Source: Arenicola marina
Taxonomy: Eukaryota > Annelida > Polychaeta > Arenicolidae
Direction of reading: 5' to 3'
Assembly: GCA_964019135.1 (NCBI GenBank)
Contig: OZ025249.1
Span: 6,126,039 to 6,190,038, forward strand
Length of the DNA stretch: 64,000 nucleotides
The notes below the pieces were generated by a model. It saw nothing but the letters and a program-made list of their open reading frames with translations. It was not told the origin of the DNA and ran no database searches. The position numbers were made by a program, and so were the translations under genes. Within the stretch, counting starts at the first letter, position 1, and each line of letters opens with the position of its first letter. This document shows, piece by piece, positions 9,001 through 60,680 of the stretch.

Positions 9001-9242
9001 ACCCCACCTGTATCTGGGGCCATTTCATACAGACATCCTAGAAGTTCAAACCCCACCTGTATCTGGGGCCATTTCATACAGACAGCCTAGAAGTTCAAAC
9101 CCCACCTGTATCTGGGATCATTTCATACGGACATCCTAGAAGTTCACACTCCGCTTGTACCTGGTGTCATTTCATACAGACATCCTAGAGGTTCAAACCC
9201 TGCCTGTATCGGGGGCCATTTCATAAAGCCACGCTAGAGGTT
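1..9242. repeat. 49-bp minisatellite array, about 188 copies
   Basis: Units begin CCTGTATCTGG and recur every 49 bp from base 1 to about 9225, then decay over a last degenerate unit. The array continues past the left edge. Units differ at a few fixed positions: GGGGCC/GGTGTC/GGTGCC/GGGGTC, ACAGAC/ACGGAC, AGAAG/AGAGG and CGCC/CACC. A divergent subtype (TTCACACTCCGCTTGTACC) is concentrated at 1600-3600 and recurs once near 9140. A few units lack one base (TTCAACCCC). Because 49 is not a multiple of 3, the frame shifts every unit and no long open frame survives; the 89-codon frame near 3435 is an artefact. No gene is visible inside. Confidence 0.97.
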
Positions 9243-21293: not shown

Positions 21294-21798
21294 TTAGTAC
21301 TGGTACTGGTAGTGGACCTGGGGCTCCACACTGACGGCGTTGTTGGTGGTCTGCCCCTGGGTCGTCATCAGCCTGAACTCATACCCTTCCTGGGTCATCC
21401 CGGCAGGCACCCCGTGCATGACCGCCCCGTTGGCCATCCCGTGGGGCACCCCGTGCATGACCGCCCCGTTGGCCATCCCGTGGGGCACCCCGTGCATGAC
21501 CATCCCGCCGTTGGAGACGACCACGGGACGGCTGCCCTCCAGAGTGGTCTCGATCCTCGGCACCAAGTCGCTGGTGGTCGTGGTGGTGGTCGTGGTGGTG
21601 CACGCTTCCTCCGAGGCGGCGCCACCACCGCTGGCGCTCACCCACCGTGGGTTGAACGACTTCTCCGTCATAGCGTCATTGATGATCATAGCGCGCTCCT
21701 GCTCCTCGATGTCCTTCGACTTAGGCGGCTCGGGCTTGGGCTGGGGCTGGGGCTGGGGCTGGGGCTGGGGCTGGGGCTCTGGGGCTGGCTGGACAATT
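21294..21798 (-). CDS. Terminal exon of the minus-strand membrane protein gene: Pro/Gln-, Thr- and His/Gly-rich cytoplasmic tail end
   Basis: The exon starts after CCCCTTGCAG (AG at 21800-21799) with the third base of a codon and encodes 167 residues ending VHYQYQY before TAA (21296-21294). It opens IVQPAPEP and then shows about seven Pro-Gln dipeptides, a charged helix-like stretch (SKDIEEQERAMIINDAMTEK), a run of nine Thr, and a 12-residue repeat (MHGVPHGMANGAV type) present about two and a half times from a 36-bp DNA repeat. There is no catalytic domain; this looks like an intrinsically disordered tail. The incoming phase matches the donor of the 22391 exon exactly. The opposite-strand frame of similar length is a shadow. 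The family is not recognised. Confidence 0.75.
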
Positions 21799-23040: not shown

Positions 23041-23100
23041 CTGGGGTAGTAATAGGGGTACCCATACATGTAGTGCTGTGGGTGCTGCTTCGGCAGCTCA
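23041..23100 (-). CDS. Cytoplasmic-tail mini-exon rich in Tyr, His and Pro
   Basis: This 60-bp exon lies between CTGTTACAG (AG at 23102-23101) and CCCAG|GTAAGC (intron from 23040). Read in the phase demanded by its neighbours it encodes ELPKQHPQHYMYGYPYYYPR. The other two frames either start with a stop or fail to match the next exon. Tyr-rich segments next to PPxY motifs are usual in tails of small adaptor-like membrane proteins such as the Shisa and WBP1 families, but there is no proof of membership. Confidence 0.68.
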
Positions 23101-25162: not shown

Positions 25163-28100
25163 TTACAGCCACAGGATCCTAGGGCCACAGGATCCTACAG
25201 CCACAGGATCTTACAGCCACAGGATCTTACAGCCACAGGATCCTAGGGCCACAGGATCCTACATCCACAGGATCTTACAGCCACAGGATCTTACAGCCAC
25301 AGGATCTTACAGCCACAGGATCTTACAGCCACAGGAACTTACAGCCACAGGACCCTACAGCCACAGGATCTTACAGCCAGAGGATCTTACAGCCACAGGA
25401 TCCTAGGGCCACAGGATCCTACATCCACAGGATCTTACAGCCACAGGATCTTACAGCCACAGGATCTTACAGCCACAGGATCTTACAGCCACAGGAACTT
25501 ACAGCCACAGGATCCTACATCCACAGGATCCTAGGGCCACAGGATCCTACAGCCACAGGATCTTACAGCCACAGGATCTTACAGCCACAGAAACTTACAG
25601 CCACAGGATCCTACATCCACAGGATCCTAGGGCCACAGGATCTTACAGCCACAGGATCCTACAGCCACAGGATCCACCAGCCACAGGATCTTACAGCCAC
25701 AGGATCCTAGGGCCACAGGATCTTACAGCCACAGGATCCTACAGCCACAGGATCCTACAGCCACAGGATCCTACAGCCACAGGATCTTACAGCCACAGGA
25801 TCTTACAGCCACAGGATCTTACAGCCACAGGATCCTAGGGCCACAGGATCTTACAGCCACAGGATCCTAGGGCCACAGGATCTTACAGCCACAGGATCCT
25901 AGGGCCACAGGATCTTACAGCCACAGGATCTTACAGCCACAGGATCTTACAGCCACAGGAACTTACAGCCACAGGATCCTAGGGCCACAGGGTCTTACAG
26001 CCACAGGATCTTACAGCCACAGGATCTTACAGCCACAGGATCTTACAGCCACAGGATCTTACAGCCACAGGAACTTACAGCCACAGGATGCTACATCCAC
26101 AGGATCCTACAGCCACAGGATCCTACAGCCACAGGATTTTACAGCCACAGGATCTTACAGCCACAGGAACTTACAGCCACAGGATCCTACATCCACAGGA
26201 TCCCACAGCCACAGGATCTTACAGCCACAGGATCCTACAGCCACAGGATCTTACCGCCACAGGATCTTACAGCCACAGGATCCTAGGGCCACAAGATCTT
26301 ACAGCCACAGGATCCTACAGCCACAGGATCTTACAGCCACAGGATCTTACAGCCGCAGGATCTTACAGCCACAGGATCCTAGGGCCACAGGATCTTACAG
26401 CCACAGGATCTTACAGCCACAGGATCTTACAGCCACAGGATCCTAGGGCCACAGGATCTTACAGCCACAGGATCCTAGGGCCACAGGGTCTTACAGCCAC
26501 AGAATCTTACAGCCACAGGATCTTACAGCCACAGGATCTTACAGCCACAGGATCTTACAGCCACAGGATCCTAGGGCCACAGGAACCTACAGCCACAGGA
26601 TCCTAGGGCCACAGGGTCTTACAGCCACAGGATCTTACAGCCCCAGATCTTACAGCCACAGGATCTTACAGCCACAGGATCCTAGGGCCACAGGATCTTA
26701 CAGCCACAGGATCCTAGGGCCACAGGGTCTTACAGCCACAGGATCCTACAGCCACAGAATCCTACAGCCACAGGATCCTACAGCCACAGGATCCTACAGC
26801 CACAGGATCCTAGGGCCACAGGATCTTACAGCCACAGGATCCTACAGCCACAGGATCCTACAGCCACAGGATCCGACAGCCACAGGATCCTACAGCCACA
26901 GGACCCTACAGCCACAGGATCCCACAGCCACAGGATCCTACAGCCACAGGATCTTACAGCCACAGGATCTTACAGCCACAGGATCCCGCAGCCACAGGAT
27001 CTTACAGCCACAGGCTCCTACAGCCACAGGATCCTACAACCACAGGCTCCTACAGCCACAGGCTCCTACAGCCACAAGATCCTACAGCCACAGGATCCTA
27101 CAGCCACAGGATCTTACAGCCACAGGATCCCACAGCCACAGGATCTTACAGCCACAGGCTCCTACAGCCACAGGATCCTACAACCACAGGCTCCTACAGC
27201 CACAGGCTCCTACAGCCACAAGATCCTACAGCCACAGGATCCTACAGCCACAGGATCTTACAGCCACAGGATCCCACAGCCACAGGATCTTACAGCCACA
27301 GGCTCCTACAGCCACAGGATCCTACAACCACAGGCTCCTACAGCCACAGGCTCCTACAGCCACAAGATCCTACAGCCACAGGATCCTACAACCACAGGAT
27401 CCTACAGCCACAGGATCTTACAGCCACAGGATCCCACAGCCACAGGATCTTACAGCTACAGGCTCCTACAGCCACAGGATCCTACAACCACAGGCTCCTA
27501 CAGCCACAGGCTCCTACAGCCACAGGATCCTACAGCCACAGGATCCTACATCCACAGGATCTTACAGCTACAGGATCCTACAGCCACAGGATCTTACAGC
27601 CATAGAATCCTACAACCACAGGATCCTACAGCCACAGGATCCTACAGCCACAGGATCCTACAACCACAGGCTCCTACAGCCACAGGCTCCTACAGCCACA
27701 GGCTCCTACAGCCACAGGATCCCACAGCCACAGGATCCTACAGCCACAGGATCCTACAGCCACAGGATCTTACAGCCACAGGATCCCACAGCCAAAGGAT
27801 CCTACAGCCACAGGATCCCACAGCCACAGGATCCTACAGCCACAGGATCCTACAGCCACAGGACCTTACAGCCACAGGATCCTACATCCACAGGATCCCA
27901 CAGCCACAGGATCCTACATCCACAGGATCCTACAGCCACAGGATCCTAATTCCACAGGATCCTACAACCACAGGATCCTACAGCCACAGGATCCCACAGC
28001 CACAGGATCCTACAGCCACAGGATCCGACAGCCACAGGATCCGACAGCCACAGGATCCTACAGCCACAGGATCTTACAGCCACAGGATCCTACATCCACA

Positions 28101-29320
28101 GGATCCCACAGCCACAGGATCCTACAGCCACAGGATCCTAATTCCACAGGATCCTACAACAACAGGACCCTACAGCCACAGGATCCTACAGCCACAGGAT
28201 CCTACAGCCACAGGACCCTACAGCCACAGGACCCTACAGCCACAGGACCCTACAGCCACAGGATCCTACAGCCACAGGATCCTACAGTCACAGGATCCTA
28301 CAGCCACGGGATCCTACAACCACAGGATCCTACAGCCACAGCATCCTACAGCCACAGGATCTTACAGCCATAGAATCCTACAGCCACAGGATCCTACAGC
28401 CACAGGATCCCACAGCCACAGGATCCTACAGCCACAGGATCCCACAGCCACAGGATCCTACAGCCACAGGATCCTACAGCCACAGGAACCTACAGCTACA
28501 GGATCCTACAGCCACAGGATCCTACATCCACAGGATCCTACAGCCACAGGATCCTACAGCCACAGGATCCTACAGCCACAGGATCCTACAGCCACAGGAT
28601 CCTACAGCCACAGGATCCCACAGCCACAGGCTCCTACAGCCACAGGACCCTACAGCCACAGGATCTTACAGCCACAGGATCCTAGGGCCACAGGATCCTA
28701 CAGCCACAGGATCCTACAGCCACAGGATCTCACAGCCACAGGATCCTACAGCCACAGGATCTCACAGCCACAGGATCCTACAGCCACAGGATCCCACAGC
28801 CACAGGATCCTACAGCCACAGGATCCTACATCCACAGGATCCTACAGCCACAGGATCTCACAGCCACAGGATCCTACAGCCACAGGATCCCACAGCCACA
28901 GGATCCTACAGCCACAGGATCCTACATCCACAGGACCCTACAGCCACAGGATCCTACAGCCACAGGATCCTACATCCACGGGATCCTACAGCCACAGGAT
29001 CCCACAGCCACAGGATCCTACAGCCACAGGATCCTACAGCCACAGGATCCTACATCCACAGGATCCTACAGCCACAGGATCCCACAGCCACAGGATCTCA
29101 CAGCCACAGGATCCAACAGCCACAGGATCCCACAGCCACAGGATCCCACAGCCACAGGATCCTACATCCACAGGATCCCACAGCCACAGGATCCTACAGC
29201 CACAGGATCCCACAGCCACAGGATCCTACAGCCACAGGATCCCACAGCCACAGGATCCTTCAGCCACAGGATCCCACAGCCACAGGATCCCACAGCCACA
29301 GGATCCTACATCCACAGGAT
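25163..29320. repeat. 16-bp minisatellite, about 260 copies
   Basis: The core CCACAGGATC recurs every 16 bp with a variable remainder: CTACAG, TTACAG, CTAGGG, CCACAG or CTACAT. CTAGGG and TTACAG variants dominate 25.2-26.9 kb. CTACAG and CCACAG variants and a repeated multi-unit block with CTCCTACAGCC dominate from about 27.0 kb. Most units contain a GGATCC palindrome. The array is entirely inside an intron of the minus-strand gene. The open frames at 26088-26606 (+) and 29034-29219 (-) are artefacts: three 16-bp units give a 16-residue period. Confidence 0.97.
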
Positions 29321-29656: not shown

Positions 29657-29972
29657 GTATTACCACTTCTCCAGGGAGGGGCGACGGCGGACGGTCTGAG
29701 GCCGTTTGCGGGGCCTGAACGGAAGTTACACCTCTATTAGTACTAGAATATGACATACGGGTTATTCGGCTTAATTTATATCCATGTCCGACATGGATGG
29801 TGTGAAATCTTATACTGTATTGGCGTAAACAAACAACATAAAGTATATTGTGAATTCCGAATAATGAAGTTAGTTGAGGTAGCCACGTTTCGATAATATA
29901 GTTATGCATGCATATTAAGTGAATTGATATATTCCCGCCCTCTCCAGTAATCGCTTGAGTTGGGTCACTTAC

Positions 29973-30005
29973 CATGTCCCCATCCTCACTTGGTACCTGC
30001 GAAGT
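29973..30005 (-). CDS. Candidate 33-bp mini-exon, possibly alternatively spliced
   Basis: A very strong acceptor (C-run, ACTCAG; AG at 30007-30006) and a consensus donor ATG|GTAAGTGA (intron from 29972) enclose 33 bp. In the phase imposed by the flanking exons it encodes LRRYQVRMGT plus parts of two codons. Because 33 is a multiple of 3, including or skipping it keeps the frame, as expected for a cassette exon. A second in-frame AG (TTCGCAG) would give 25 bp and break the frame. The encoded peptide is unremarkable, so confidence rests on the splice signals. Confidence 0.45.
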
Positions 30006-30253: not shown

Positions 30254-30328
30254 TTTGGCGGAGGGCCTGGTGCGGGTGGTGGGGGCGGCGGGGGTGCGGG
30301 GTGTTCGGCAATGAACTCGTCCATCCGC
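30254..30328 (-). CDS. Cytoplasmic-tail exon, acidic then polyproline
   Basis: This 75-bp exon lies between TGTGTGACAG (AG at 30330-30329) and CCAAA|GTAAGTAA (intron from 30253). It encodes RMDEFIAEHPAPPPPPPPAP followed by GPPP and the first two bases of the next codon. The polyproline stretch is a potential SH3, WW or EVH1 ligand. Its incoming base completes the AG|G codon left by the exon at 35725, and its outgoing two bases are completed by the exons downstream, so phase is conserved on both sides. Confidence 0.73.
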
Positions 30329-30330
30329 CT

Positions 30331-33300
30331 GTCACACAATATCCGGTTATTCACACGCTCCAGTCGTTCACATGGTATGAGATACGGGATACAGGGAACA
30401 CGGTAACGGGCAGAACACGCGCCAATACACCCAGGAACCAACGCTCCGGGTCATAGTTGCAATAAATTAATATTCGCAAATATCTATAAATATGTGACCC
30501 AAATTTATAGGTGCTGTAAATTGTATATTGGGTCATTCTAAATGTTGGATAACGTGGGATTCAATGTAACCCCATGGCGGGAGGTGGGGGGGGGGCGGAG
30601 GCACTTAGGGAAGTTGTCTCTTATTTTTAGGTAGAATTGAAGTAAACTAACAAATACTAATCACTTTATTCACAGACGATAAAGATAAAAACGTTACAAT
30701 TCAAACAAGCATTACATTGTAGCTTCCTGCTCAGATGCATTTCTGAGTGAAAGAATCACATCCCTGATACGGGCTGCCATCGTTCACACTACCGACGCCA
30801 CAGCCAGCAATGTCAGGCAAAATATTATTATTATTATTACCAATGGCTTTCTATAGCGACAAATCCCTAATCCGTTCATTGACGCTGTACATGGATCGGA
30901 CCAGGCGCTATACCCAATATACCGGCTGATCTTTAACATGGCATAGGTAGCTAACTGAACTAACAAATATATACACAATTAATAATCTTCATCGATTATT
31001 AATAAGTTACTTCTTGAAGTGGTTGATATTTACGCTGGGTGGGCGGACGGTTGAAGCAAGCAAGGATCCCTTATTTGTTCCAATTGGCAGAGGAAACACG
31101 GGTATAGGGCTTGAGGAGTAGCCACGTGGCTCACTATATCTACCACAACAAAGATTGCTTCTCCGTATCTATCACAACAAACAAGCGGCTGCAGCAGAGG
31201 ACGAGGAAAGCATGAACACGGAAACTGCGCAGAGAGGCAAACAAAATACTGGGTATTTATATTGAAGTGATTCTGGTATTATGTTACATTATTTCTCTAC
31301 AGCTTGTGATTTCAAATTACAGGCCGAGGTGTATGAACCCACATTATCCAGAGTTCAATACCTGTAATGCTTGTAACTTGTCTACCCGTCCGTGGAATAA
31401 TATACCCGACTCGACTTTCATTAAAGAGATGTGAAAGCTGATTTCTTTTTCAAAGATCTATATGACAACTGTCGTTTGCTGATGAACACATCAAAAGCGA
31501 AAAAAAAGTTGGAGTCATTTGAGAGTAAACATAGCAGTTTGTACTCAAGCTCAACAGACTGATATTTTACGACGACACTGATGACACTAATGATACTAAT
31601 GACACAAGAGGATGATACCTACTAAGTAGCGAGGAATAATAGATAGGAAAACACTTCTCGGACAGCGCCAACATATAAAAGAAATTGCGCCAGGGATCTC
31701 AGCGAGAGTTCAACGGTGGTTTGCTGTTTCATAGAGATTGTGACTCCTCGCCTGGAGTCAGCACATAGAAAGCACTAGACGACTCGGTATCTAGGTGTCT
31801 AATCTTCACTCTCCCTGTGAGAGAACAAACCTAGGCGGTCGTGGGTCCGGGGCAGGCAAATAGCTCCTCTTTGGCTCAGGGGGCGGAGAGGATGGGGGCG
31901 AAAAGCGCCTCTCACCCTCTTGGAACCGTCTATGGTGGGCATTGATTATATTGAGATGCCTTCAATGTATTTATGGCATAGGGATACATGATGAACGGAT
32001 GCGACGCTAATAATTTTTACGCCAATGAACGTCAGATGCCCATAACCGATGATTTACTGGTTTATTTAATGATATTACTCATATATCATTGGTAATAATT
32101 GTAAGGGCTTAAGAGATCAATTTATCAATCTATTTCGTGGGTTATGGGAAGACGGCAATTACTGTGATTTCTCGGTATTCAGTTATTTCGGGATTACTCT
32201 TGTTCAGTTTGAGGTACATCCTATCTGATTGGCCACATGATAAATACGTCACATGCACGTGAGCTGACTATTTACGCACCTCTTTTCCACCACCTCCACA
32301 TGTTCCGTGCTCTCAACCTGGTCGAAATATAGACTGGAGGAAGAAAGACATCACTCAATGAAAAGGTTAAGTAAACGGGTGTGACATGGGTCAGCGAGTG
32401 CCGTCGCCGAACACCGTCCATGCCTGCCGCGAAGTGCGTGGGATGCCGCGAGACTTGAACGAGACAAAGGTCAAGGTGGGCGTCATGTCTTCGCGACACA
32501 GACGCGCTGGACAAAGCAAATGTCACTCTAGTGGGAAAAGAGGGCACGATTAATACATGCTTCACAAGGCGCGACGCCGTAAAACAAGGTTGGTAGGTGC
32601 GAAGGTCTAATTCTTGCTGGCCGCTGTAATGTTGCAGACATGCAGTTACACCTTGGTGCCGATGTCGAGAGGCTGTCGTCATCACTCATAATAAAGGGCA
32701 ATGCAGTCTAGAGGGGGTCAACTATAATGGTGAAATAATAAGAACATAAGATAATTTACATAAATAATGAATACGATATAATCCATGTTCCCTGTCGGTG
32801 CATCTTGGCTGCAAAGCCTTCAAATCTAAAACAGAGTGAAACATTATAGTAGTCGTTAAGTGGTTAAAATTAGAACACAAAAGCGATGACAAGTGTCAGA
32901 ACGTCAAAGCGCAGAAGGTGAGAAGCCTGAGTTAGCAAATAGAAGAGTTCATTAAAATCACATTCTTGAGTAAAGAAAATATACCTGAGAAGATTTAGTA
33001 GTTTGCTGTTAATCGTATTAAAGTTTTACATTTTATTGTGATTTATTTGTATTTATTCAGAATATGTTTTATATTTGATGGTGCTGTACTGGTATTTATT
33101 GAGAACATCTTTATATTTGACGGTGATGTACTTGATGACGTGTATTGCGCGTGGTGTCAGAACAGTCACGTGATGAGGAAAGGGTTGTTCCTTGTAAGTG
33201 GCCGTTGGATGAGGCCTTACGCTAGGCCCGGGCTACATGGCCACACCAAGCAGAGGGTTCCTTATTGACGGAGAACCCTCTCCACGTGAGACCTGCATGA

Positions 33301-36430: not shown

Positions 36431-37447
36431 AAGAAATACAAACAATAAACTGCGTTGTTAGCCACGAACTAAGTTAGTGCATACAATTATCATATGATTA
36501 CAGTATTATGTTATTAGCGTTAATAATAAGCAGGGCATTAGTACAATTATTCAGCTTCATAAATACAACGTTAATCGGTGTAAATACTGGTTATTATATT
36601 AGTTCTTGTTTAAAAACAACTTCGATAACAGTATTATGATAAATACCATACGTAATCAAATAATTTGGAAAGCGTTGCAAATTCCATAAAACCTGTCGAA
36701 AAACACTGGGAAAACAGAAACTGTCATGTGTTGCCTGGAGGCCTCTCTGTATGCGGTCTCACCTCCGGATCTCGTGAATGGACGAGTTGTCACGTCTCCG
36801 ACCATACTCCTCAACCTTCTCAATAATGGGTTCTCGTATGTAGCTACGTACGCCACGAGAGTATGGTAATGTATGAACACGTGACAAGTCATCACAAATA
36901 AGCACAAGACACTAGTTATCAAAGACTAGCACAATTTAGCGATTTTTAATATATCACTGAATAATGAGGACAATCGCATGAGTCTTTTATGGTCCACATG
37001 CATGTTAATTTAGATGCAATAAATTATTAACATAAGAAGCTTCAAGCATAATATTTAGTTTCACTTCAATAAAACCTTTAAGTTAGTCTATATGTATTCG
37101 GTCATGTATAATGAAAACATACCGCTTTCCTTTTATTGTTTTTTGACCCCGAAATTCTTCGCTCCTGAAGTAAAATAATATATATATATATATATATATT
37201 AGTCAAAATGTGGAAATATTAACCATCTAATGAAAAATTGTCAACCTCAGATTTGTTGTTCTGGTTAACATTTTTCTGGAGCCACTTTGCGATTCAGAAA
37301 CAAGTACCATTAGAAAGAATAATGCTTGTGCCTTATTTATATACGAATGACGTACAATTCTTAGCGGAAAACAACAGTACATGTTTTGGAAAACAAATTC
37401 TGTACGACTCGGTAAGTTAATCAATTAATAATTCAGGGATAACTTAC
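36431..37447 (-). other. Intron between transmembrane exon and tail exon
   Basis: AT-rich sequence with a (TA)n run at about 37177-37200. No exon is visible apart from those listed. Confidence 0.45.
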
Positions 37448-37610
37448 CATTTATCTTTGACGACATCGCCACCAGAAGTCATAAGTTTCTCGCGGACGTT
37501 AGTGCGCTTGCGCAGCCGTCGCGAGAGGAAGACGAAGAAGACGATCAGGACGACGAGAACGATTAACCCCAACACTCCGCCGGCAATGGCTCCGATAACG
37601 AGCGGCTCCA
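37448..37610 (-). CDS. Transmembrane exon of a single-pass type I membrane protein
   Basis: This 163-bp exon lies between CTCTGTTTCCAG (AG at 37612-37611) and AAATG|GTAAGTTA (intron from 37447). It encodes EPLVIGAIAGGVLGL, then IVLVVLIVFFVFL, a membrane segment of about 25 residues containing GxxxG-like AIAGG. The basic stop-transfer SRRLRKR follows, then TNVREKLMTSGGDVVKDK. The positive charges after the segment place the Pro-rich tail in the cytoplasm. The exon starts with two bases that complete the G left by the 43920 exon (GTG, Val) and ends with two bases (TG) completed to TGG (Trp) by the 35952 acceptor. The first 47 nt of this exon, with its acceptor, are repeated in the 107-bp array just upstream. 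Confidence 0.8.
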
Positions 37611-38208
37611 CTGGAAACAGAGCGAAACACGCCATTACAGGGGTTATTACAGTCATGCCGTTATCACGAATAACCCCAACACTCCGCCCGCAATGGCTCC
37701 GATAACGAGCGGCTCCACTGGAAAAAGAGCGAAACACGTCATTAAAGGGGTTATTACAGTCATGCCGTTATAACGAATAATCTCAACACTCCGCCGGCAA
37801 TGGCTCCGATAACGAGCGGCTCCACTGGAAAAAGGGCGAAACATGTCATTACTGGGGTTATTACAGTCATGCCGTTATAACGATTAATCTCAACACTCCG
37901 CCGGCAATGGCTCCGATAACGAGCGGCTTCACTGGAAAAAGGGCGAAACACGTCATTACCGGGGTTATTACAGTCATGCCGTTACAACGAATAACCTCAA
38001 CACTCCGCCGGCAATGGCTCCGATAATGAGCGGCTCCACTGGAAAAAGGGCAAAACATGTCATTACCGGGGTTATTACAGTCATGCCGTTACAACGAATA
38101 ACCCCAACACTCCGCCGGAAATGGCTCCGATAATGAGCGGCTCCACTGGAAAAAGGGCGAAACACGTCATTACCGGGGTTATTACAGTCATGCCGTTATA
38201 ACGATTAA
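37611..38208 (-). repeat. 107-bp tandem array built from the transmembrane exon's 5' part
   Basis: Each unit contains about 60 bp of intron, the acceptor TTTTTCCAG and the first 47 bp of the transmembrane exon. Copies of the acceptor boundary lie at 37717, 37824, 37931, 38038 and 38145, each exactly 107 bp apart and from the real one at 37610. In each copy the frame reads VEPLVIGAIAGGVL with minor changes (for example VKPL in the 37931 copy), then FVITA (one copy IVITA) and a stop, because intron follows directly and no donor is kept. These are partial exon duplications, not genes. The 60-64 codon frames seen here are these relics. Confidence 0.93.
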
Positions 38209-38733
38209 AGTGTTCGTGCCACGATTTTGTCTTGCTCAGATTTAACTTGATTTAGGGAAAATAATCAAATAACAATTTGTTTTAATGGGAGTTAACAGTT
38301 TTTATTCCACGATATCACTATAAACGGGTTCGTTAAAGTAGCAAAAGTGAGGTCCGGCGGGTTTATTTCTGAGAGCGTTGCATCTGAGCGTTATTTGAAA
38401 ATTCCCCAATGATGTCACAAGATTGACAGGTGAGCTTTGATGCAGTGCGTTGACATCTGTGGTCGAGGGCGTGTATTGTTTTCATGGTTGAGTGCGTTTC
38501 GTTGAGTTCAAGCCAATGAGCAGACAGAGTCTGAGTCTCAATATAAAAGCACGTGCGTTTGTATTCCCCTTTGACGTCACTTTCCTCGCTCGCAGAAGTT
38601 AAATTGGTAAGTGCGAAAACAAGTGGAAAAAGTATGCCCTTCTACTATTTGGGGCGTTACAGCTCGATACTATAAGCGCGGATACACAGAAGATTAATAT
38701 GAGCTAAAGTTGTTTTGGCGTGGCACGAACACT
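38209..38733. mobile_element. 525-bp inverted-repeat element flanked by TTAA (piggyBac-type target duplication)
   Basis: The ends AGTGTTCGTGCCACG and CGTGGCACGAACACT are perfect 15-bp inverted repeats. TTAA lies directly outside both (38205-38208 and 38734-38737). It interrupts a 107-bp unit: neighbouring units show the uninterrupted sequence CGATTAATCTCAACACT with a single TTAA. No transposase frame is present, so it is a non-autonomous MITE. TTAA duplications are characteristic of the piggyBac superfamily; the terminal AGTG is not the usual piggyBac CCC start, so the exact family is open. Confidence 0.8.
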
Positions 38734-38768
38734 TTAATCTCAACACTCGGCCGGCAATGATAACGAGC
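38734..38768 (-). repeat. Remnant of a sixth 107-bp unit, left part
   Basis: CTCAACACTCGGCCGGCAATGATAACGAGC continues the unit broken by the TTAA element, with a small deletion compared with intact units. It ends abruptly at 38768. Confidence 0.75.
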
Positions 38769-39226
38769 CTCAGCGTAAGTTTGCCGATCACTGCATTAGA
38801 CACAATCTACTAACCATAATGAATAAAAATCATTTTAGACCATGCAACATCATATTGTTTTAAGGGCATTACATAATACATAAAAAACACGACCATCGAT
38901 TCATACTCCTATGAATGTAACATCCTTCACTGCTACGCATGTAATAAACTAAAGTTATAACTATCATACCTACTTATCTACAATTCCATTCGATGTTTTA
39001 GCCATTAAGTCCTTGTATTGTGACACATATGTTTTATTTATTTGTTTTTCGTGTGTTATCTATTTACTTTTTTTAGCTGGCTCCCATACTAGCGACTAAC
39101 CGTCTTAATGGGAGTCTCCTCAACTAATGCCAATGTATTTTTGTCTTGTCAGTAGGTACTTTTCATTGTATTTCTAGTATATTTTTGTTGGCATGTTGAA
39201 GTAAACATATATCATCAACAAGCTTA
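38769..39226. mobile_element. Second insertion (about 458 bp) in the same repeat unit
   Basis: The unit sequence stops after GATAACGAGC at 38768 and resumes at TCCACTGGAAAAAGGG from 39227. The intervening sequence is AT-rich and single-copy within the window. Neither inverted repeats nor a clear target duplication are visible, so it could be a retroelement end or filler DNA from break repair. Confidence 0.4.
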
Positions 39227-39285
39227 TCCACTGGAAAAAGGGCGAAACAGGTCATTACAGGGATTATTACAGTAATGTCATTAAA
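39227..39285 (-). repeat. Remnant of a 107-bp unit, right part, with acceptor relic
   Basis: TCCACTGGAAAAAGGGCGAA and the following GTCATTACAGGGATTATTACAG match the intronic half of the 107-bp unit, including the acceptor CAG (39233-39231). This is the far edge of the array. Confidence 0.75.
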
Positions 39286-43542: not shown

Positions 43543-43919
43543 ACTACGCACAGAACACACGACAAAGCGAACGCTCCTTGGATAGCAAAACGTGCTCCAA
43601 TTTATATATACGTCGTCGGTGAATCTCCTGTCAGTATACTATAATACTATATAATATGTCAATCGTAAAAGAGGCTCAGAGAAATTACTTCCTAACTCCA
43701 GAGCAATGTACAACAGTAGGAGATATTATTGCGATTTACACAGCGAAAGTGGTAATGTGTACAAAGAACAAAACGGATATATATAATACTATGGCACTGG
43801 CTATGTGATCACTTGGGAATACATGTAAAAGTCTTTGTTAAATAACAACAACTAATAAGGTGATATATAATAATCGAGGGTAACTTCAACGCCTCATGCT
43901 GCGGTTTCTGTAGACTTAC

Positions 43920-44081
43920 CCATGATTAACCTGGACGGGTATCCTCTGTGTATCAAGAACTGGGAGCGAATACCATTGTCTGGAGTGACGTATCCGGGGC
44001 AGGTCCTGGCAGTCTGGAATGCCCGCCAGATGGCGGTGGTGTCCCCTACCGGTCGGCCCGGACAGTTAAGGGTGTGACCCC
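43920..44081 (-). CDS. Juxtamembrane ectodomain exon
   Basis: The donor AATCATGG|GTAAGTC (intron from 43919) leaves one base, exactly what the transmembrane exon needs. The frame reads CPGRPVGDTTAIWRAFQTAR, then TCPGYVTPDNGIRS and FLIHRGYPSRLIM before joining VEPLVIGA. Two Cys-Pro-Gly motifs and a Trp suggest a small folded extracellular segment. The 5' boundary is uncertain: the acceptor can be after GTCTGAG (start 44081) or after CCGGTAG (start 44045), both in the same phase. A phase-0 acceptor, GGCATTCCAG, is also possible. An in-frame TGA just upstream of 44081 limits the exon. The family is not recognised. Confidence 0.58.
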
Positions 44082-50640: not shown

Positions 50641-51562
50641 TTTCATAAATTCTTTGGTACAGCGCAAACAGGAACCTACGTTTACGTCAAGAAACGTCGA
50701 ACGATCGCCATTCACAATATCTTAATGTTTTAATGCATCATATGGGATAATGGTCAAGAATTCTAATAGTGCTCCCGAAAAAAAGTAACGGGTATTATAT
50801 GGTGGAGTAGTATATTGGGATTAATATTTTGGAAGTCCCATTGGACCAAGGAGCAGATTTTAAATACGAGACAAATAGCTGTAGCTAACCTTGTGATCAG
50901 GCCACACACACAACACGAGAGGACGGCAGGGCCCGGCGGGGGGTGGTCAGCAGACCACCGACACGACACAGACTCCATCAAGCAATAATGAAGGGTGCGT
51001 CGTTGTAGCACGTGGTGCAAAGCAGATCGTAGACAATCCCCGACAATTGGTCCACCCGTCTATGTAAATAGACATGTGGAAACTTGGCATGAAATCCACT
51101 TTCCACGTGTCATTGTCACTATAGGCTGTCAATGAATGCAAATGGTGCTAGGTTACGCGTAGGCCTAGTGCGTCACCTCGTTACTGCTGGCGACAGTCTG
51201 GGCGATGCCAGACAGTGACAGATGGCATAATGGAGATTCAAAGAAAAGATAGAAAACAGATAGAAAAGATAGAAAACAGGCGGCAGTCGACTATTCAGAC
51301 GTCTCACCCATGGCCACCAAGGCAGCGTCGTGGATGTCCCCGACCATTGCTTCTTTTTATGTGTCCCCAAACTATTCCTCCTTTGTACACTGATTCTGAG
51401 GGGATGGAGCAATTGGATAGTTTCGCGTCCCGCCAATATCTACGGCTGAATGCCTCCAGCGCCAACCAGCTAGCTTTAAAACCCATTCTCGCCCAGATTC
51501 TGGCTTTCTTTTTTCGTCTGAAAATGAACTTTATTGTATTTCACGGACTGAGATTGAATTCC
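50641..51562. other. Non-coding before the right-hand arrays
   Basis: Contains a short GATAGAAAACA direct duplication near 51246. Frames of 130 codons (+) and 87 codons (-) overlap here without domains or splice context. Confidence 0.35.
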
Positions 51563-54500
51563 ACCGAGAGTCAACTAACACCCAGGCGGCCGCAGACAGT
51601 CAACTAACACCCAGGCGGCCACAGACAGTCAACTAACACCCAATCGGCCACCGACAGTCAACTAACACCCAGGCGGCCACAGACAGTCAACTAACACCCA
51701 ATCGGCCACCGACAGTCAACTAACACCCAGGCGGCCACCGACAGTCCACTAACACCCAGGCGGTCACAGACAGTCAACTAACACCCAAGCGGTCACAGAG
51801 AGTCAACTAACACCCAATCGGCCACCGACAGTCAACTAACACCCAGGCGGCCACAGGCAGTTAACTAACACCCGACAGTCAACTAACACCCAGGCGACCA
51901 CCCAGGCGACCACCGACAGTCCACTAACACCCAGGCGGTCACAGACAGTCAACTAACACCCAAGCGGTCACAGAGAGTCAATTACACCCAATCGGCTACA
52001 GTCAACTAACACCCAGGCGGCCACAGGCAGTCTACTAACACCCAATCGGTCACCGACAGTCAAATAACACCCAGGCGGCCACCGACAGTCAACTAACACC
52101 CAGGCGGCCACAGACAGTCAACTAACACCCAATCGGCTACAGTCAACTAACACCCAATCGGCCACCGACAGTCAACTAACACCCAGGCGGCCACCGACAG
52201 TCAACTAACACCCAAGCGGTCACAGAGAGTCAACTAACACCCAATCGGCCACCGACAGTCCATTAACACCCACGCGGCAACAGGCAGTCAACTAACACCC
52301 AATCGGCTACAGTCAACCAACACCCAATCGGCCACCGACAGTCAACTAACACCCAGGCGGCCACCGACAGTCAACTAACACCCAATCGGCTACAGTTAAC
52401 TAACACCCAATCGGCCACAGACAGTCCATTAACACCCAGGTGGCAACAGGCAGTCAACTAACACCCAATCGGCCACCGACAGTCAACTAACACCCAGGCT
52501 GCCACCGACAGTCAACTAACACCCAGGCGGCCACAGACAGTCAACTAACACCCAGGCGGCCACTGACACTCCATTAACACCCAGGCGGCCACTGACAGTC
52601 AACCAACACCCAGGCGGCCACCGACAGTCAACTAACACCCAGGCGGCCACAGACAGTCAACTAACACCCAGGCGGCCACTGACAGTCCATTAACACCCAG
52701 GCGGCCACAGACAGTCAACTAACACCCAGGCGGCCACCGACAGTCCACTAACACCCAGGCGGTCACAGACAGTCAACTAACACCCACGCGGTCACAGAGA
52801 GTCAATTACACCCAAACGGCCACCGACAGTCAACTAACACCCAATCGGCCACCGACAGTCAACTAACACCCAGGCGGCCACAGGCAGTCAACTAACACCC
52901 AATCGGCCACCGACAGTCAACTAACACCCAATCGGCCACCGACAGTCAACTAACACCCAATCGGCCACAGACAGTCAACTAACACCCAATCGGCCACCGA
53001 CAGTCAACTAACACCCAATCGGGCAGAGACAGTCAAGTAACACCCAATCGGCCACCGACAGTCAACTAACACCCAGGCGGCCACAGGCAGTCAACTAACA
53101 CCCAATCGGCCACCGGCAGTCAACTAACACCCAATCGGGCAGAGACAGTCAAGTAACACCCAATCGGCCACCGACAGTCAACTAACACCCAGGCGGCCAC
53201 AGACAGTCAACTAACACCCAGGCGGCCACCGACAGTCAGCTAACACCCAATCGGCCACCGACAGTCAACTAACACCCAGGCGGCCACAGGCAGTCAACTA
53301 ACACCCAATCGGCCACCGACAGTCAACTAACACCCAGGCGGCCACAGGCAGTCAACTAACACCCAATCGGCCACCGACAGTCAACTAACACCCAATCGGG
53401 CAGAGACAGTCAACTAACAACCAAGCGGTCACAGAGAGTCAACTAACACCCAATCGGCCACCGACAGTCAACTAACACCCAATCGGCCACCGACAGTCAA
53501 CTAACACCCAATCGGCCTCCGACAGTCAATTAACGCCCAGGCGGCCACAGACAGTCAACTAACACCCAATCGGCCACCGACAGTCAACTAACACCCAATC
53601 GGCCACAGACAGTCAGCTAACACCCAAGCGGCCACCGACAGTCAACTAACACCCAATCGGCCACAGACAGTCAACTAACACCCAATCGGCCTCCGACAGT
53701 CAACTAACACCCAATCGGCCACCGACAGTCAGCTGACACCCAATCGGCCACCGACAGTCAACTAACAACCAGGCGGCCACAGGCAGTCAACTAACACCCA
53801 ATCGGCCACCGACAGTCAACTAATACCCAGGCGGCCACCGACAGTCAACTAACACCCAGGCGGTCACAGACAGTCAACTAACACCCAAGCGGTCACAGAG
53901 AGTCAATTACACCCAAACGGCCACCGACAGTCAACTAACACCCAATCGGCCACCGACAGTCAACTAACACCCAGGCGGCCACAGGCAGTCAACTAACACC
54001 CAATCGGCCACCGACAGTCAACTAACACCCAGGCGGCCACCGACAGTCAACTAACACCCAGGCGGCCACAGACAGTCAACTAACACCCAGGCGGCCACTG
54101 ACAGTCTATTAACCCCCAGGCGGCCACAGACAGTCAACTAACAACCAATCGGCTACAGTCAACTAACAACCAATCGGCCACCGACAGTCAACTAACACCC
54201 ATGCGGCCACCGACAGTCCACTAACACCCAGGCGGTCACAGACAGTCAACTAACACCCAAGCGGTCACAGAGAGTCAATTACACCCAATCGGCCACCGAC
54301 AGTCAACTAACACCCAATCGGCCACCGACAGTCAACTAACACCCAGGCGGCCACAGGCAGTCAACTAACACCCAATCGGCCACCGACAGTCAGCTAACAC
54401 CCAGGCAGCCACCGACAGTCAACTAACACCCAGGCGGCCACAGACAGTCAACTAACACCCAGGCGGCCACTGACAGTCTATTAACCCCCAGGCGGCCACA

Positions 54501-57500
54501 GACAGTCAACTAACACCCAATCGGCTACAGTCAACTAACACCCAATCGGCCACCGACAGTCAACTAACACCCAATCGGCCACCGACAGTCAACTAACACC
54601 CAGGCGGCCACAGGCAGTCAACTAACACCCAATCGGCCACCGACAGTCAACTAACACCCAGGCGGCCACCGACAGTCAACTAACACCCAAGCGGTCACAG
54701 AGAGTCAACTAACACCCAATCGGCCACCGACAGTCAACTAACACCCAGGCGGCCACCGACAGTCAACTAACACCCAGGCGGCCACAGACTGTCAACTAAC
54801 ACCCAGGCGGCCACTGACAGTCCATTAGCACCCAGGCGGCCACAGACAGTCAACTAACACCCAATCGGCTACAGTCAACTAACACCCAATCGGCCACAGA
54901 CAGTCAACTAACACCCAATCGGCCACCGACAGTCAATTAACACCCAGGCGGCCACAGACAGTCAACTCACACCCAAGCGGCCACCGACAGTCAACTAACA
55001 CCCAATCGGCCACCGACAGTCAACTAACACCCAGGCGGCCACAGGCAGTCAACTAACACCCAATCGACCACCGACAGTCAACTAACACCCAGGCGGCCAC
55101 CGACAGTCAACTAACACCCAGGCGGCCACAGACAGTCAACCAACACCCAGGCGGCCACTGACAGTCTATTAACCCCCAGGCGGCCACAGACAGTCAACTA
55201 ACACCCAATCGGCTACAGTCAACTAACCCCCAATCGGCCACCGACAGTCAACTAACACCCATGCGGCCACCGACAGTCCACTAACACCCAGGCGGTCACA
55301 GACAGTCAACTAACACCCAAGCGGTCACAGAGAGTCAATTACACCCAATCGGCCACCGACAGTCAACTAACACCCAATCGGCCACCGACAGTCAACTAAC
55401 ACCCAATCGGCCACAGGCAGTCAACTAACACCCAATCGGCCACCGACAGTCAACTAACACCCAGGCGGCCACCGACAGTCAACTAACACCCAAGCGGCCA
55501 CAGACAGTCAACTAACACCCAGGCGGCCACTGACAGTCCATTAACACCCAGGCGGACACAGACAGTCGACTAACACCCAATCGGCCACCGACAGTCAACT
55601 AACACCCAATCGGCCACCGACAGTCAACTAACACCCAATCGGCCACCGACAGTCAACTAACACCCAGGCGGCCACAGGCAGTCAACTAACACCCAATCGG
55701 CCACCGACAGTCAACCAACACCCAATCGGGCAGAGACAGTCAACTAACGCCCAATCGGCCACCGACAGTCAACTAACACCCAGGCGGCCACAGGCAGTCA
55801 ACTAACACCCAAGCGGCGACCGACAGTCAACTAACACCCAATCGGCCACCGACAGTCAGCTAACACCCAATCGGCCACCGACAGTCAACTAACACCCAGG
55901 CGGCCACAGGCAGTCAACTAACACCCAATCGGCCACCGACAGTCAACTAACACCCAGGCGGCCACCGACAGTCAACTAACACCCGGGCGGTCACAGACAG
56001 TCAACTAACACCCAAGCGGTCACAGAGAGTCAATTACACCCAATCGGCCACCGACAGTCAACTAACACCCAATCGGGAACCGACAGTCAACTAACACCCA
56101 GGCGGCCACAGGCAGTCAACTAACACCCAATCGGCCACCGACAGTCAACTAACACCCAGGCGGCCACCGACAGTCAACTAACACCCAGACGGCCACAGAC
56201 AGTCAACTAACACCCAGGCGGCCACTGACAGTCTATTAAACCCCAGGCGGCCACAGAGAGTCAACTAACACCCAGGCGGCCACAGGCAGTCAACTAACAC
56301 CCAATCGGCCACCGACAGTCAACTAACACCCAGGCGACCACCGACAGTCAACTAACACCCAGGCGGTCACAGACAGTCAACTAACACCCAAGCGGTCACA
56401 GAGAGTCAATTACACCCAATCGGCCACCGACAGTCAACTAACACCCAATCGGCCACCGACAGTCAACTAACACCCAGGCGGCCACAGGCAGTCAACTAAC
56501 ACCCAATCGGCCACCGACAGTCAACTAACACCCAGGCGGCCACCGATAGTCAACTAACACCCAGGCGGCCACAGACTGTCAACTAACACCCAGGCGGCCA
56601 CTGACAGTCCATTAACACCTAGTCGGCCACAGACAGTCAACTAACACCCAATCGGCTACAGTCAACTAACACCCAATCGGCCACAGACAGTCAACTAACC
56701 CCCAATCGGCCACCGACAGTCAACTAACACCCAATCGGCCACCGACAGTCAACTAACACCCAGGCAGCCACCGACAGTCAACTAACACCCAGGCGGCCAC
56801 AGACAGTCAACTAACACCCAGGCGGCCACTGACAGTCTATTAACCCCCAGGCGGCCACAGACAGTCAACTAACAACCAATCGGCCACCGACAGTCAACTA
56901 ACACCCATGCGGCCACCGACAGTCAACTAACACCCATGCGGCCACCGACAGTCCACTAACACCCAGGCGGTCACAGACAGTCAACTAACACCCAAGCGGT
57001 CACAGAGAGTCAATTACACCCAATCGGCCACCGACAGTCAACTAACACCCAATCGGCCACCGACAGTCAACTAACACCCAGGCGGCCACAGGCAGTCAAC
57101 TAACACCCAATCGGCCACCGACAGTCAACTAACACCCAGGCGGCCACCGACAGTCAACTAACACCCAAGCGGTCACAGAGAGTCAACTAACACCCAATCG
57201 GCCACCGACAGTCAACTAACACCCAGGCGGCCACCGACAGTCAACTAACACCCAGGCGGCCACAGACTGTCAACTAACACCCAGGCGGCCACTGACAGTC
57301 CATTAACACCCAGGCGGCCACAGACAGTCAACTAACACCCAATCGGCTACAGTCAACTAACACCCAATCGGCCACAGACAGACAACTAACCCCCAATCGG
57401 CCACCGACAGTCCACTAACACCCAGGCGGTCACAGAGAGTCAATTACACCCAATCGGCCACCGACAGTCAACTAACACCCAATCGGCCACCGACAGTCAA

Positions 57501-58630
57501 GTAACACCCAGGCGGCCACAGGCAGTCAACTAACACCCAATCGGCCACCGACAGTCAACTAACACCCAGGCGGCTACCGACAGTCAGCTAACACCCAGGC
57601 GGCCACAGACAGTCAACTAACACCCAGGCGGCCACTGACAGTCTATTAACCCCCAGGCGGCCACAGACAGTCAACTAACAACCAATCGGCTACAGTCAAC
57701 TAACACCCAATCGGCCACCGACACTCAACTAACACCCAGGCGGCCACAGACAGCCAACTAACACCCAGGCGGTCACAGACAGTCAACTAACACCCAGGCG
57801 GCCACAGACAGTCAACTAACAACCAATCGGCTACAGTCAACTAACACCCAATCGGCCACCGACAGTCAACTAACACCCATGCGGCCACCGACAGTCCACT
57901 AACACCCAGGCGGTCGCAGGCAGTCAACTAACACCCAAGCGGTCACAGAGAGTCAACTAACACCCAATCGGCCACCGACAGTCAACTAACACCCAGGCGG
58001 CCACCGACAGTCAACTAACACCCAGGCGGCCACAGACAGTCAACTAACACCCAGGCGGCCACTGACAGTCCACTAACACCCAGGCGGCCACACACAGTCA
58101 ATTAACACCCAATCGGCTACAGTCAACTAACACCCTATCGGCCACAGACAGTCAACTAACACCCAATCGGCCACCGACAGTCAACTAACACCCAATCGGC
58201 CACCGACAGTCAACTAACACCCAATCGGCCACCGACAGTCAACTAACACCCAATCGGCCACCGACAGTCAACTAACACCCAGGCGGCCACAGGCAGTCAA
58301 CTAACACCCAATCGGCCACCGACAGTCAACTAACACCCAATCGGCCACCGACAGTCAACTAACACCCAGGCGGCCACCGACAGTCAACTAACACCCAGGC
58401 GGCCACAGACAGTCAACTAACACCCAGGCGGCCACTGACAGTCCATTAACACCCAGGCGGCCACAGACAGTCAACTAACACCCAATCGGCTACAGTTAAC
58501 TAACACCCAATCGGCCACAGACAGTCAACTAACACCCAATCGGCTATCGACAGTCAACTAACACCCAATCGGCTATCGACAGTCAACTAACACCCAATCG
58601 GCCACCGACAGTCAACTAACACCCAATCGG
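51563..58630. repeat. 29-bp minisatellite, about 243 copies
   Basis: ACAGTCAACTAACACCCAATCGGCCACCG repeats every 29 bp. The main alternations are AATCGGCC / AGGCGGCC / AAGCGGTC and CACCGACAG / CACAGACAG / CACAGGCAG / CACAGAGAG. Shortened 25-bp units (CGGCTACAGTC) recur. Blocks of many units are repeated as larger segments, for example the series around 53.8, 54.2, 55.3 and 56.0 kb, which indicates unequal exchange of multi-unit blocks. Stops in every frame prevent long frames. It would be intronic if the minus-strand gene reaches 60-62 kb. Confidence 0.97.
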
Positions 58631-60680
58631 CCAGTCGTTAGTCTGTGAGACACAGCCTCACGCTGGCCAGTCGTTAGTCTGTAGGACACAGCCTGACGCT
58701 GGCCAGTCGTTAGTCTGTGGGACACGGCCTCGCGCTGGCCAGTCGTTAGTATGTGGGACACGGCCTGAGGCTGGCCAGCCGTTAGTCTGTGGGACACGGC
58801 CTGACGCTGGCCAGCCGTTAGTCTGTGGGACACGGCCTGACGCTGGCCAGCCGTTAGTCTGTGGGACACGGCCTGACGCTGGCCAGCCGTTAGTCTGCGG
58901 GACACGGCCTCACGCTGGCCAGCCGTTAGTCTGTTGGACACGGTCTCACGCTGGCCAGCCGTTAGTCTGTGGGACACGGCCTGACGCTGGCCAGCCGTTA
59001 GTCTCTGGGACACGGCCTCACGCTGGCCAGCCGTTAGTCTGTGGGACACGGCCTCACGCTGGCCAGCCGTTAGTCTGTGGGACACGGCCTCACGCTGGCC
59101 AGCCGTCAGTCTGTGGGACACGGCCTCACGCTGGCCAGCCGTCAGTCTGTGGGACACGGCCTGACGCTGGCCAGTCGTTAGTCTGTGGGACACGGCCTCA
59201 CCCTGGCCAGCCGTTAGTCTGTGGGACACGGCCTGACGCTGGCCAGCCGTCAGTCTGTGGGACACGGCCTCACGCTGGCCAGCCGTTAGTCTGTGGGACA
59301 CGGCCTGACGCTGGCCAGCCGTTAGTCTGTGAGACACGGCCTCACGCTGGCCAGCCGTTAGTCTGTGGGACACGGCCTCACGCTGGCCAGCCGTTAGTCT
59401 GTGGGACACGGCCTCACGCTGGCCAGCCGTTAGTCTGTGAGACACGGCCTGACGCTGGCCAGCCGTTAGTCTGTGAGACACGGCCTCACGCTGGCCAGCC
59501 GGTAGTCTGTGGGACACGGCCTGACGCTGGCCAGCCGTTAGTCTGTGGGACACGGCCTGACGCTGGCCAGCCGTTAGTCTGTGGGACACGGCCTGACGCT
59601 GGCCAGCCGTTAGTCTGTGGGACACGGCCTGACGCTGGCCAGCCGTTAGTCTGTGGGACACGGCCTCACGCAGGCCAGCCGTTAATCTGTGGGACACGGC
59701 CTCACGCTGGCCAGTCGTTAGTCTGTGGGACACGGCCTGACGCTGGCCAGCCGTTAGTCTGTGGGACACGGCCTGACGCTGGCCAGCCGTTAGTCTGTGG
59801 GACACGGCCTGACGCTGGCCAGCCGTTAGTCTGTGGGACACGGCCTCACGCAGGCCAGCCGTTAATCTGTGGGACACGGCCTCACGCTGGCCAGTCGTTA
59901 GTCTGTGGGACACGGCCTGACGCTGGCCAGCCGTTAGTCTGTGGGACACGGCCTCACGCTGGCCAACCGTTAGTCTGTGGGACACGGCCTGAGGCTGGCC
60001 AGCCGTTAGTCTGTGGGACACGGCCTGACGCTGGCCAGCCGTTAGTCTGTGAGACACGGCCTGACGCTGGCCAGCCGTTAATCTGTGGGACACGGCCTCA
60101 CGCTGGCCAGCCGTTAGTCTGTGGGACACGGCCTCAGGCTGGCCAGCCGTTAGTCTGTGAGACACGGCCTCACGCTGGCCAGCCGTTAGTCTGTGGCACA
60201 CGGCCTCACGCTGGCCAGCCGTTAGTCTGTGGGACACGGCCTCACGCTGGCCAGCCGTTAGTCTGTGGGACACGGCCTGACGCTGGCCAGCCGTTAGTCT
60301 GTGGGACACGGCCTGACGCTGGCCAGCCGTTAGTCTGTGGGACACGGCCTCACGCTGGCCAGCCGTTAGTCTGTGAGACACGGCCTCACGCTGGCCAGCC
60401 GTTATTCTGTGGGACACGGCCTCACGCTGGCCAGCCGTTAGTCTGTGGGACACGGCCTCACGCTGGCCAGCCGTTAGTCTGTGGGACACCACCTGACGCT
60501 GGCCAGCCGTTAGTCTGTGGGGCACGGCCTGACGCTGGCCAGCCGTTAGTCTGTGGGACACGGCCTGACGCTGGCCAGCCGTCAGTCTGTGGGACACGGC
60601 CTGACGCTGGCCAGCCGTTAGTCTGTGAGACACGGCCTGACGCTGGCCAGCCGTTAGTCTGTGGGACACGGCCTCATTAC
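58631..60680. repeat. 36-bp minisatellite, about 57 copies, directly fused to the 29-bp array
   Basis: CTGGCCAGCCGTTAGTCTGTGGGACACGGCCTGACG repeats every 36 bp. The junction with the 29-bp array falls inside the shared bases CGGCCA at about 58630. Because 36 is a multiple of 3 and the unit has no minus-strand stop, one frame stays open for 700 codons with a 12-residue period (HRLTAGQRQAVS). It has no signal peptide, splice sites or recognisable fold and is best treated as repeat. Confidence 0.95.

Follow-up and report, generated by a model that had tools for sequence, protein, structure and literature searches.

A minisatellite across the splice acceptor of a membrane-segment exon in an annelid gene, most likely a neutral mirage

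In the annelid Arenicola marina one splice acceptor of a minus-strand gene is repeated in tandem together with the start of its exon, and the resulting array is most likely a neutral mirage, i.e. a minisatellite across an intron/exon boundary whose surplus acceptors (here called decoys) are, as we infer, ignored by splicing. The array lies at 37564-38205 of the window, by which the whole analysed stretch of 64,000 nucleotides is meant, and it consists of six head-to-tail units of 107 bp, each made of 60 nt of intron end and 47 nt of exon start. Its anatomy is that of a mirage: the repeat is tandem and minisatellite-sized (TRF 37558-38208, period 107, 6.1 copies, 94% matches, score 1113) and its unit spans a true intron/exon boundary, the transmembrane (TM) exon concerned being backed by homology to a protein, P0001. 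The chief doubt about the neutral reading is that the decoys outscore the native acceptor.

The first-pass annotation of this DNA had described five extra copies, 107 bp apart, of the acceptor and the first 47 nt of the exon, and this is borne out by TRF, by a repeat search (spacing of 107 between neighbouring units, five times) and by the alignment of units. The same first exon bases as given there were found, namely 38145, 38038, 37931, 37824, 37717 and 37610. The acceptor sequence is TTTTTCCAG in all five outer units and TGTTTCCAG in the native unit, which occupies 37564-37670 with its acceptor at 37610. On a rough matrix of human type the decoy units going outwards score as follows: unit 1 (37671-37777, acceptor 37717) 11.75, unit 2 (37778-37884, acceptor 37824) 10.91, unit 3 (37885-37991, acceptor 37931) 10.91, unit 4 (37992-38098, acceptor 38038) 11.65 and unit 5 (38099-38205, acceptor 38145) 10.91.

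The six acceptors in series are near-identical, as had been claimed, with 5-10 pairwise differences per 107 nt, and two groups of units are seen: the native and the 37717 units are 5 differences apart and stand 7-10 from the four outer units, which differ inter se by 5-7. With regard to the homogenisation inside a mirage, with divergent boundary units, this array has a decayed outer edge and two inner units that are 5 apart and 7-10 from the rest. Exon sequence does serve as minisatellite unit, 47 nt of it in every 107 bp; variable columns make up 6 of 47 in this exonic part and 10 of 60 in the intronic one (Fisher p 0.79), so that the former shows no reduced variation, and amino acids are altered in the decoys, by G to R (three units), V to I (two), E to K (one) and A to S (one). 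For both reasons the sequences give no sign of protein-level constraint on the units, and the decoys vary as would be expected if they behaved as intron. LII is encoded by the two outermost units, as in P0001, and LVI by the inner units.

The array had been drawn as ending at 38208. Six units do lie there, but the array is cut by a miniature transposon (MITE) and its remains continue beyond. The MITE (38205-38737) measures 533 bp with its two terminal TTAA included, and its ends are marked by an inverted repeat of 21 nt that pairs 38203-38223 perfectly with 38719-38739. A genome search with the array and its flank gave 40 scored matches of 1340 first-look candidates, one being the window itself and the other 39 covering only the end of the MITE. 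Seven other MITE loci were fetched (L002-L008) and aligned end to end; they measure 496-534 bp (496 and 516 bp in two, 532-534 bp in five), lie at a p-distance of 0.018-0.054 from the window copy, carry TTAA at both ends and differ in their flanks. One of the patterns used for the TTAA check itself contained TTAA; the best-match alignment, which has no more than one mismatch in the rest of the terminal repeat, also shows TTAA. Having terminal inverted repeats and end TTAA at several loci, the element is a TTAA-flanked, putatively piggyBac-like MITE. The family of about 533 bp has many genomic copies.

Beyond the MITE a seventh unit has decayed and lost its acceptor (38735-38798, minus strand; local alignment score 29 against a best of 19.5 in 500 mononucleotide shuffles). 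About 420 bp past it an older outlying copy is found (39217-39283, minus strand), 85% identical to the reference unit (score 45, against no more than 21 in 500 shuffles), with an exon part of about 14 nt and an intact acceptor at 39230 (10.91 on the human-type matrix). With both remnants beyond the MITE, the array was once longer, and is older, than was first implied, its present outer edge being a transposon junction. Selection on the outlying acceptor was considered, as its tract is intact, and was rejected: only 1 of 6 intron mismatches falls in the last 22 of 50 nt, which is not significant (P 0.16). In the assembly of 867 Mb the array has two matches only, the array itself and the outlier 1 kb away, by a search that skips very common words, so that absence is not equal to rarity; as no match was found elsewhere, the array is most simply explained as a local duplication.

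Tandem repeats are plentiful in the surroundings, the merged TRF rows covering 44% of the window. Very large minisatellites are located at 1-9225, 25164-29320 and 51561-60676 (49 bp x 188, 16 bp x 260, 29 bp x 246, 36 bp x 57). A mitochondrial contig (C762, 15,942 bp) carries COX1, with TGA read as Trp. Among the best 120 of 7999 matches of this COX1, Pilargis wolfi (Pilargidae, Phyllodocida) stands at the top with 91% over 100%, followed by Saccocirridae (87%), Phyllodocida (89% over 98%) and Namalycastis (90% over 98%), with gastropods lower. COX1 thus puts the host among annelids, close to Pilargidae; a cephalochordate host had been considered before, and a search for the GFP family, to which no control genome responded either, gave no match. 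The long open reading frames (ORFs) of the contig that we take to be mitochondrial genes lie on one strand; annelid mitochondrial genes usually lie on one strand.

The gene that holds the array is, on homology, a real one, with nine inferred exons and a predicted product of 328 aa. It spans 21294-43923 of the window (minus strand) when the first, ATGG-ending exon is counted. A search of 5.8 billion proteins, with length and word limits that would hide much longer relatives, returned one protein, P0001 (321 aa, longest contig 1462 nt, E 3e-31), which was alone again when the search was repeated. The gene is apparently lineage-restricted, or its relatives are hidden by these limits. The product aligns with P0001 end to end (84% identity, 333 columns, 17 gaps), and the residues of P0001 fall on eight exons of the window, from 37610 to 21294 (16.3 kb), which the ATGG exon brings to nine, all phases fitting. 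P0001 therefore derives from spliced RNA or from a retrocopy. It is the protein of another organism, whose gene may be without the array, and in that organism it joins M directly to VEPL..., the very join that native splicing predicts here.

All exons are on the minus strand. The proposed start codon lies in the last 4 nt (ATGG, 43920-43923) of the inferred upstream exon, with the donor GTAAGT at 43919 and a phase 1 that fits the TM exon; it has A at -3 and G at +4, and P0001 begins with the matching M (M-VEPL). The native TM exon (37448-37610, 163 nt, acceptor CTGTTTCCAG, donor GTAAGT at 37447) was located by tblastn of P0001, with 93% identity to residues 2-56. The match to P0001 and phase then place exon 3 at 37123-37164, exon 4 at 32280-32333, exon 5 at 30254-30328, exon 6 at 29973-30005, exon 7 at 29664-29714, exon 8 at 23041-23100 and exon 9, with the stop codon, at 21294-21798. 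Exon 9 contains a 39-bp tandem repeat at 21406-21501 (minus strand; HGMANGAVMHGVP), and the repeat structure differs in P0001. An earlier gene model, which had placed exons downstream of the array at 36.8 and 36.0 kb and a coding exon upstream of it at 44 kb, was dropped, as the homologue showed other downstream exons. In the predicted protein a short N-terminus leads to a membrane segment (VIGAIAGGVLGLIVLVVLIVFFVFL), which is followed by a basic tail rich in proline and tyrosine; the topology is likewise a prediction. For this protein nothing in Pfam or among solved structures lay above cut-off (best structure E 0.035). With its start codon at the very end of the upstream exon, within the final 4 nt, the best gene model begins MVEPL... 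and would have nothing extracellular before the membrane segment, hence no ectodomain.

On the human-type matrix the native acceptor reaches 8.80, against 10.91-11.75 for the five decoys and 10.91 for the outlier, and it ranks seventh among the 11 acceptors in the intron that score at least 8.0; elsewhere on the same strand the same matrix finds 11 acceptors of at least 10.9 in 62,200 nt. The native acceptor is also the only one of the six with a G in its tract. For the seven remaining inferred acceptors of the gene this matrix gives 11.21, 11.48, 1.91 (exon 5), 6.25, 7.2, 5.01 and 8.43, so that little weight can be put on it, and the native 8.8 is ordinary for the gene. Predicted pairing leaves the native tract the least open (0.32 vs 0.54-0.70 in the decoys). 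Shielding of the decoys by RNA structure was entertained: the predicted fold of the 811-nt region is better than that of any of 20 shuffles (z -5.0). It was rejected as the selector, as the six units do not stand out when taken singly (z -0.46 to -1.96) and the decoy tracts are more open than the native one. Site strength alone therefore predicts that the decoys are used.

It had also been stated that the copies are without a donor. No donor of native strength is indeed present in them, but CCG/GTAATG occurs in three units (38173 in unit 5, 38066 in unit 4, 37959 in unit 3; 5.09) and GAG/GTTATT in one (37995 in unit 4; 3.55), compared on the human-type matrix with 10.34 for the native TM-exon donor and 3.86 for GTG/GTAATA, the gene's own inferred exon-7 donor. 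As these scores lie in the range of the exon-7 donor, it is conceivable that the donor-like sites define cryptic exons of 79 nt.

Predicted pairing gives the decoys no cover, and for this reason faithful splicing here would need exon context, the whole exon and a GTAAGT donor (10.34 on the human-type matrix) being present only after the native acceptor. Classical tests with duplicated splice sites spoke for a role of exon context and proximity. The neutral mirage may be pictured as follows. A tandem duplication across the intron/exon boundary would have given rise to a locus-specific minisatellite whose unit holds a complete 3' splice site and the first 47 or so nt of the exon; the array would have grown by slippage or unequal exchange and later been cut by the TTAA-flanked MITE. 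In the transcripts the upstream ATGG exon would be spliced to 37610, with the decoys removed as part of the intron. The presumed cause is exon definition, since a complete exon with a strong donor (10.34) follows the innermost acceptor only, within 163 nt, and stray transcripts from decoys would meet an early stop and probably be degraded.

The stop predicted earlier for the use of outer acceptors is there for all five, each leading to TGA after 22 codons, with 205-633 nt of the extended exon still to follow. By the best gene model this would yield a peptide of 22 aa and no soluble receptor. In each unit a stop and a start overlap as ATGA, which leads back into the full frame. Decoy transcripts would thus hold a chain of ORFs, the first of 22 aa and then one of 36 aa for every further unit, and the chain ends in frame; its last ORF is a predicted protein of 342 aa, namely the native one with M replaced by 15 other residues, MTVITPVMACFALFP. 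Such a chain follows from the 107-nt period together with ATGA, and selection for it is not shown.

Arrays of like build are known from amphioxus, where the globin genes BflGb6 and BflGb9 carry minisatellite-like tandem duplications called mirages, that of BflGb6 covering an intron's 3' end together with the 5' portion of the exon that follows (PMC3087553). Its acceptor-side units of 150-160 bp number 6 and 3 in two haplotypes, and RT-PCR suggests undisturbed splicing, with the reservation that cryptic sites could give aberrant transcripts (PMC3087553). Splice signals are said to be kept in many units of the globin mirages and boundary units to escape homogenisation (PMC3087553). The present array is like that of BflGb6 in having tandem units across an acceptor, up to 6 of them, with signals retained (PMC3087553); unlike the amphioxus mirages it is hosted by an annelid instead of a cephalochordate. 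The mobile-element insertion and the comparison of decoy and native strength belong to the array described here, neither appearing in the available text on BflGb6 (PMC3087553). In the lancelet PGBD5 gene, repeats of 60 bp (2 or 7) and 108 bp (3 or 6), depending on assembly version, run over exons and splice sites, and the mirages of Adh and troponin C are described as not generating aberrant mRNAs (PMC3902484). The boundaries concerned in PGBD5 are other ones, and its gene structure is largely one of predicted splice sites (PMC3902484).

Internal tandem repeats at exon-intron boundaries are also reported for human segmentally duplicated genes, where they can form novel introns and alternative transcripts; these too are minisatellites at exon-intron boundaries, but with units of about 30 bp on average (PMC2812944). 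Intronic minisatellites of C. elegans have been linked to multiple alternative splicing (PMC4039745). The earthworm metallothionein genes concern an annelid too and have intronic minisatellites in the family, with exon-4 duplications absent from the final transcript; in the text available, however, these are exon duplications and inversions and are not described as an array across one acceptor (PMC12783039). In the literature searched, no annelid case of an exon-intron-boundary minisatellite across a splice acceptor was found; the literature found on mirages in the sense of boundary minisatellites concerns amphioxus, the human boundary repeats going by another name.

Against this background the decoys might still be used enough to matter, competing with the native acceptor and diverting pre-mRNA to early-stop transcripts, with the unit number setting the output as in a poison-splice rheostat. 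This is considered rather unlikely, although several observations speak for it: the native acceptor, alone in having a G in its tract, scores below each of the five decoys and below the outlier at 39230, the stops leave 205-633 nt of the extended exon behind them, and three units hold donor-like sites. It is also favoured by the C. elegans minisatellites (PMC4039745) and the human boundary repeats (PMC2812944), which are linked to alternative splicing and to new introns and alternative transcripts respectively, and by the amphioxus paper itself, which allows aberrant transcripts from duplicated signals (PMC3087553). On the other hand, the like-built amphioxus arrays reportedly leave splicing undisturbed (PMC3087553, PMC3902484), the decoys miss the second half of the exon, constraint on the units is not seen, and the scores come from a rough, human-type matrix that gives 1.91-11.48 for the other inferred acceptors of the gene. 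Quite improbable is the extended version, a variable-number rheostat with translational rescue through the ATGA-linked ORFs, in which the pre-mRNA is shared among the native and five higher-scoring decoy acceptors; if it were true, the unit number would set the amount and the N-terminus of the protein, differing between individuals.

The first-pass annotation had left open whether the array is silent or produces soluble or decoy isoforms. The silent alternative is the likelier one, because amphioxus arrays of matching anatomy reportedly leave splicing undisturbed, and soluble or truncated receptor isoforms are judged very improbable. The stop after 22 codons in the best model would truncate the product, and a candidate upstream exon at 62227-62128 (minus strand; acceptor 12.89, donor 7.55 on the human-type matrix), which ends in phase 1 as the TM exon needs (VSFNEPLAVSPCGSNGSVNGLTHNTSYHLDRSK), makes a longer isoform with an ectodomain possible. 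Yet the best model begins MVEPL..., has no ectodomain and gives a 22-aa peptide, and the homologue shares its start M; a product of the longer form made through a decoy would still end in a hydrophobic tail of about 21 residues, thus retaining most of the hydrophobic stretch, and no Pfam family lay above cut-off in the upstream pieces searched (5 of 42 frames, plus a join of the 62.2 kb and TM exons). That the array is an assembly artefact is highly improbable: tandem repeats are prone to misassembly and the copy number rests on the assembly and not on reads, but the units differ at 5-10 of 107 sites, and the MITE, the decayed unit and the outlier form an independent structure. Extremely improbable is an origin of the unit as part of a dispersed introner-like mobile element carrying splice signals. 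The outlying copy at 39217-39283 and the MITE within the array would suit such an element; dispersed copies, however, were not found, both genome matches of the array lying at the locus (very common words skipped), whereas the same-genome search that included the MITE end gave 40 scored matches of 1340 candidates, and the exon part of the unit encodes a segment conserved in P0001.

As a most likely neutral mirage, the locus extends the boundary minisatellite across a splice acceptor to an annelid. It is at the same time a natural test of splice-site choice, for its near-identical acceptors differ mainly in the rest of the exon and the donor that follow, and the native one is the lowest-scoring of its set on the human-type matrix. 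Faithful splicing at this locus would mean that exon context prevails over site strength; without it, copy number could tune the output of the gene.
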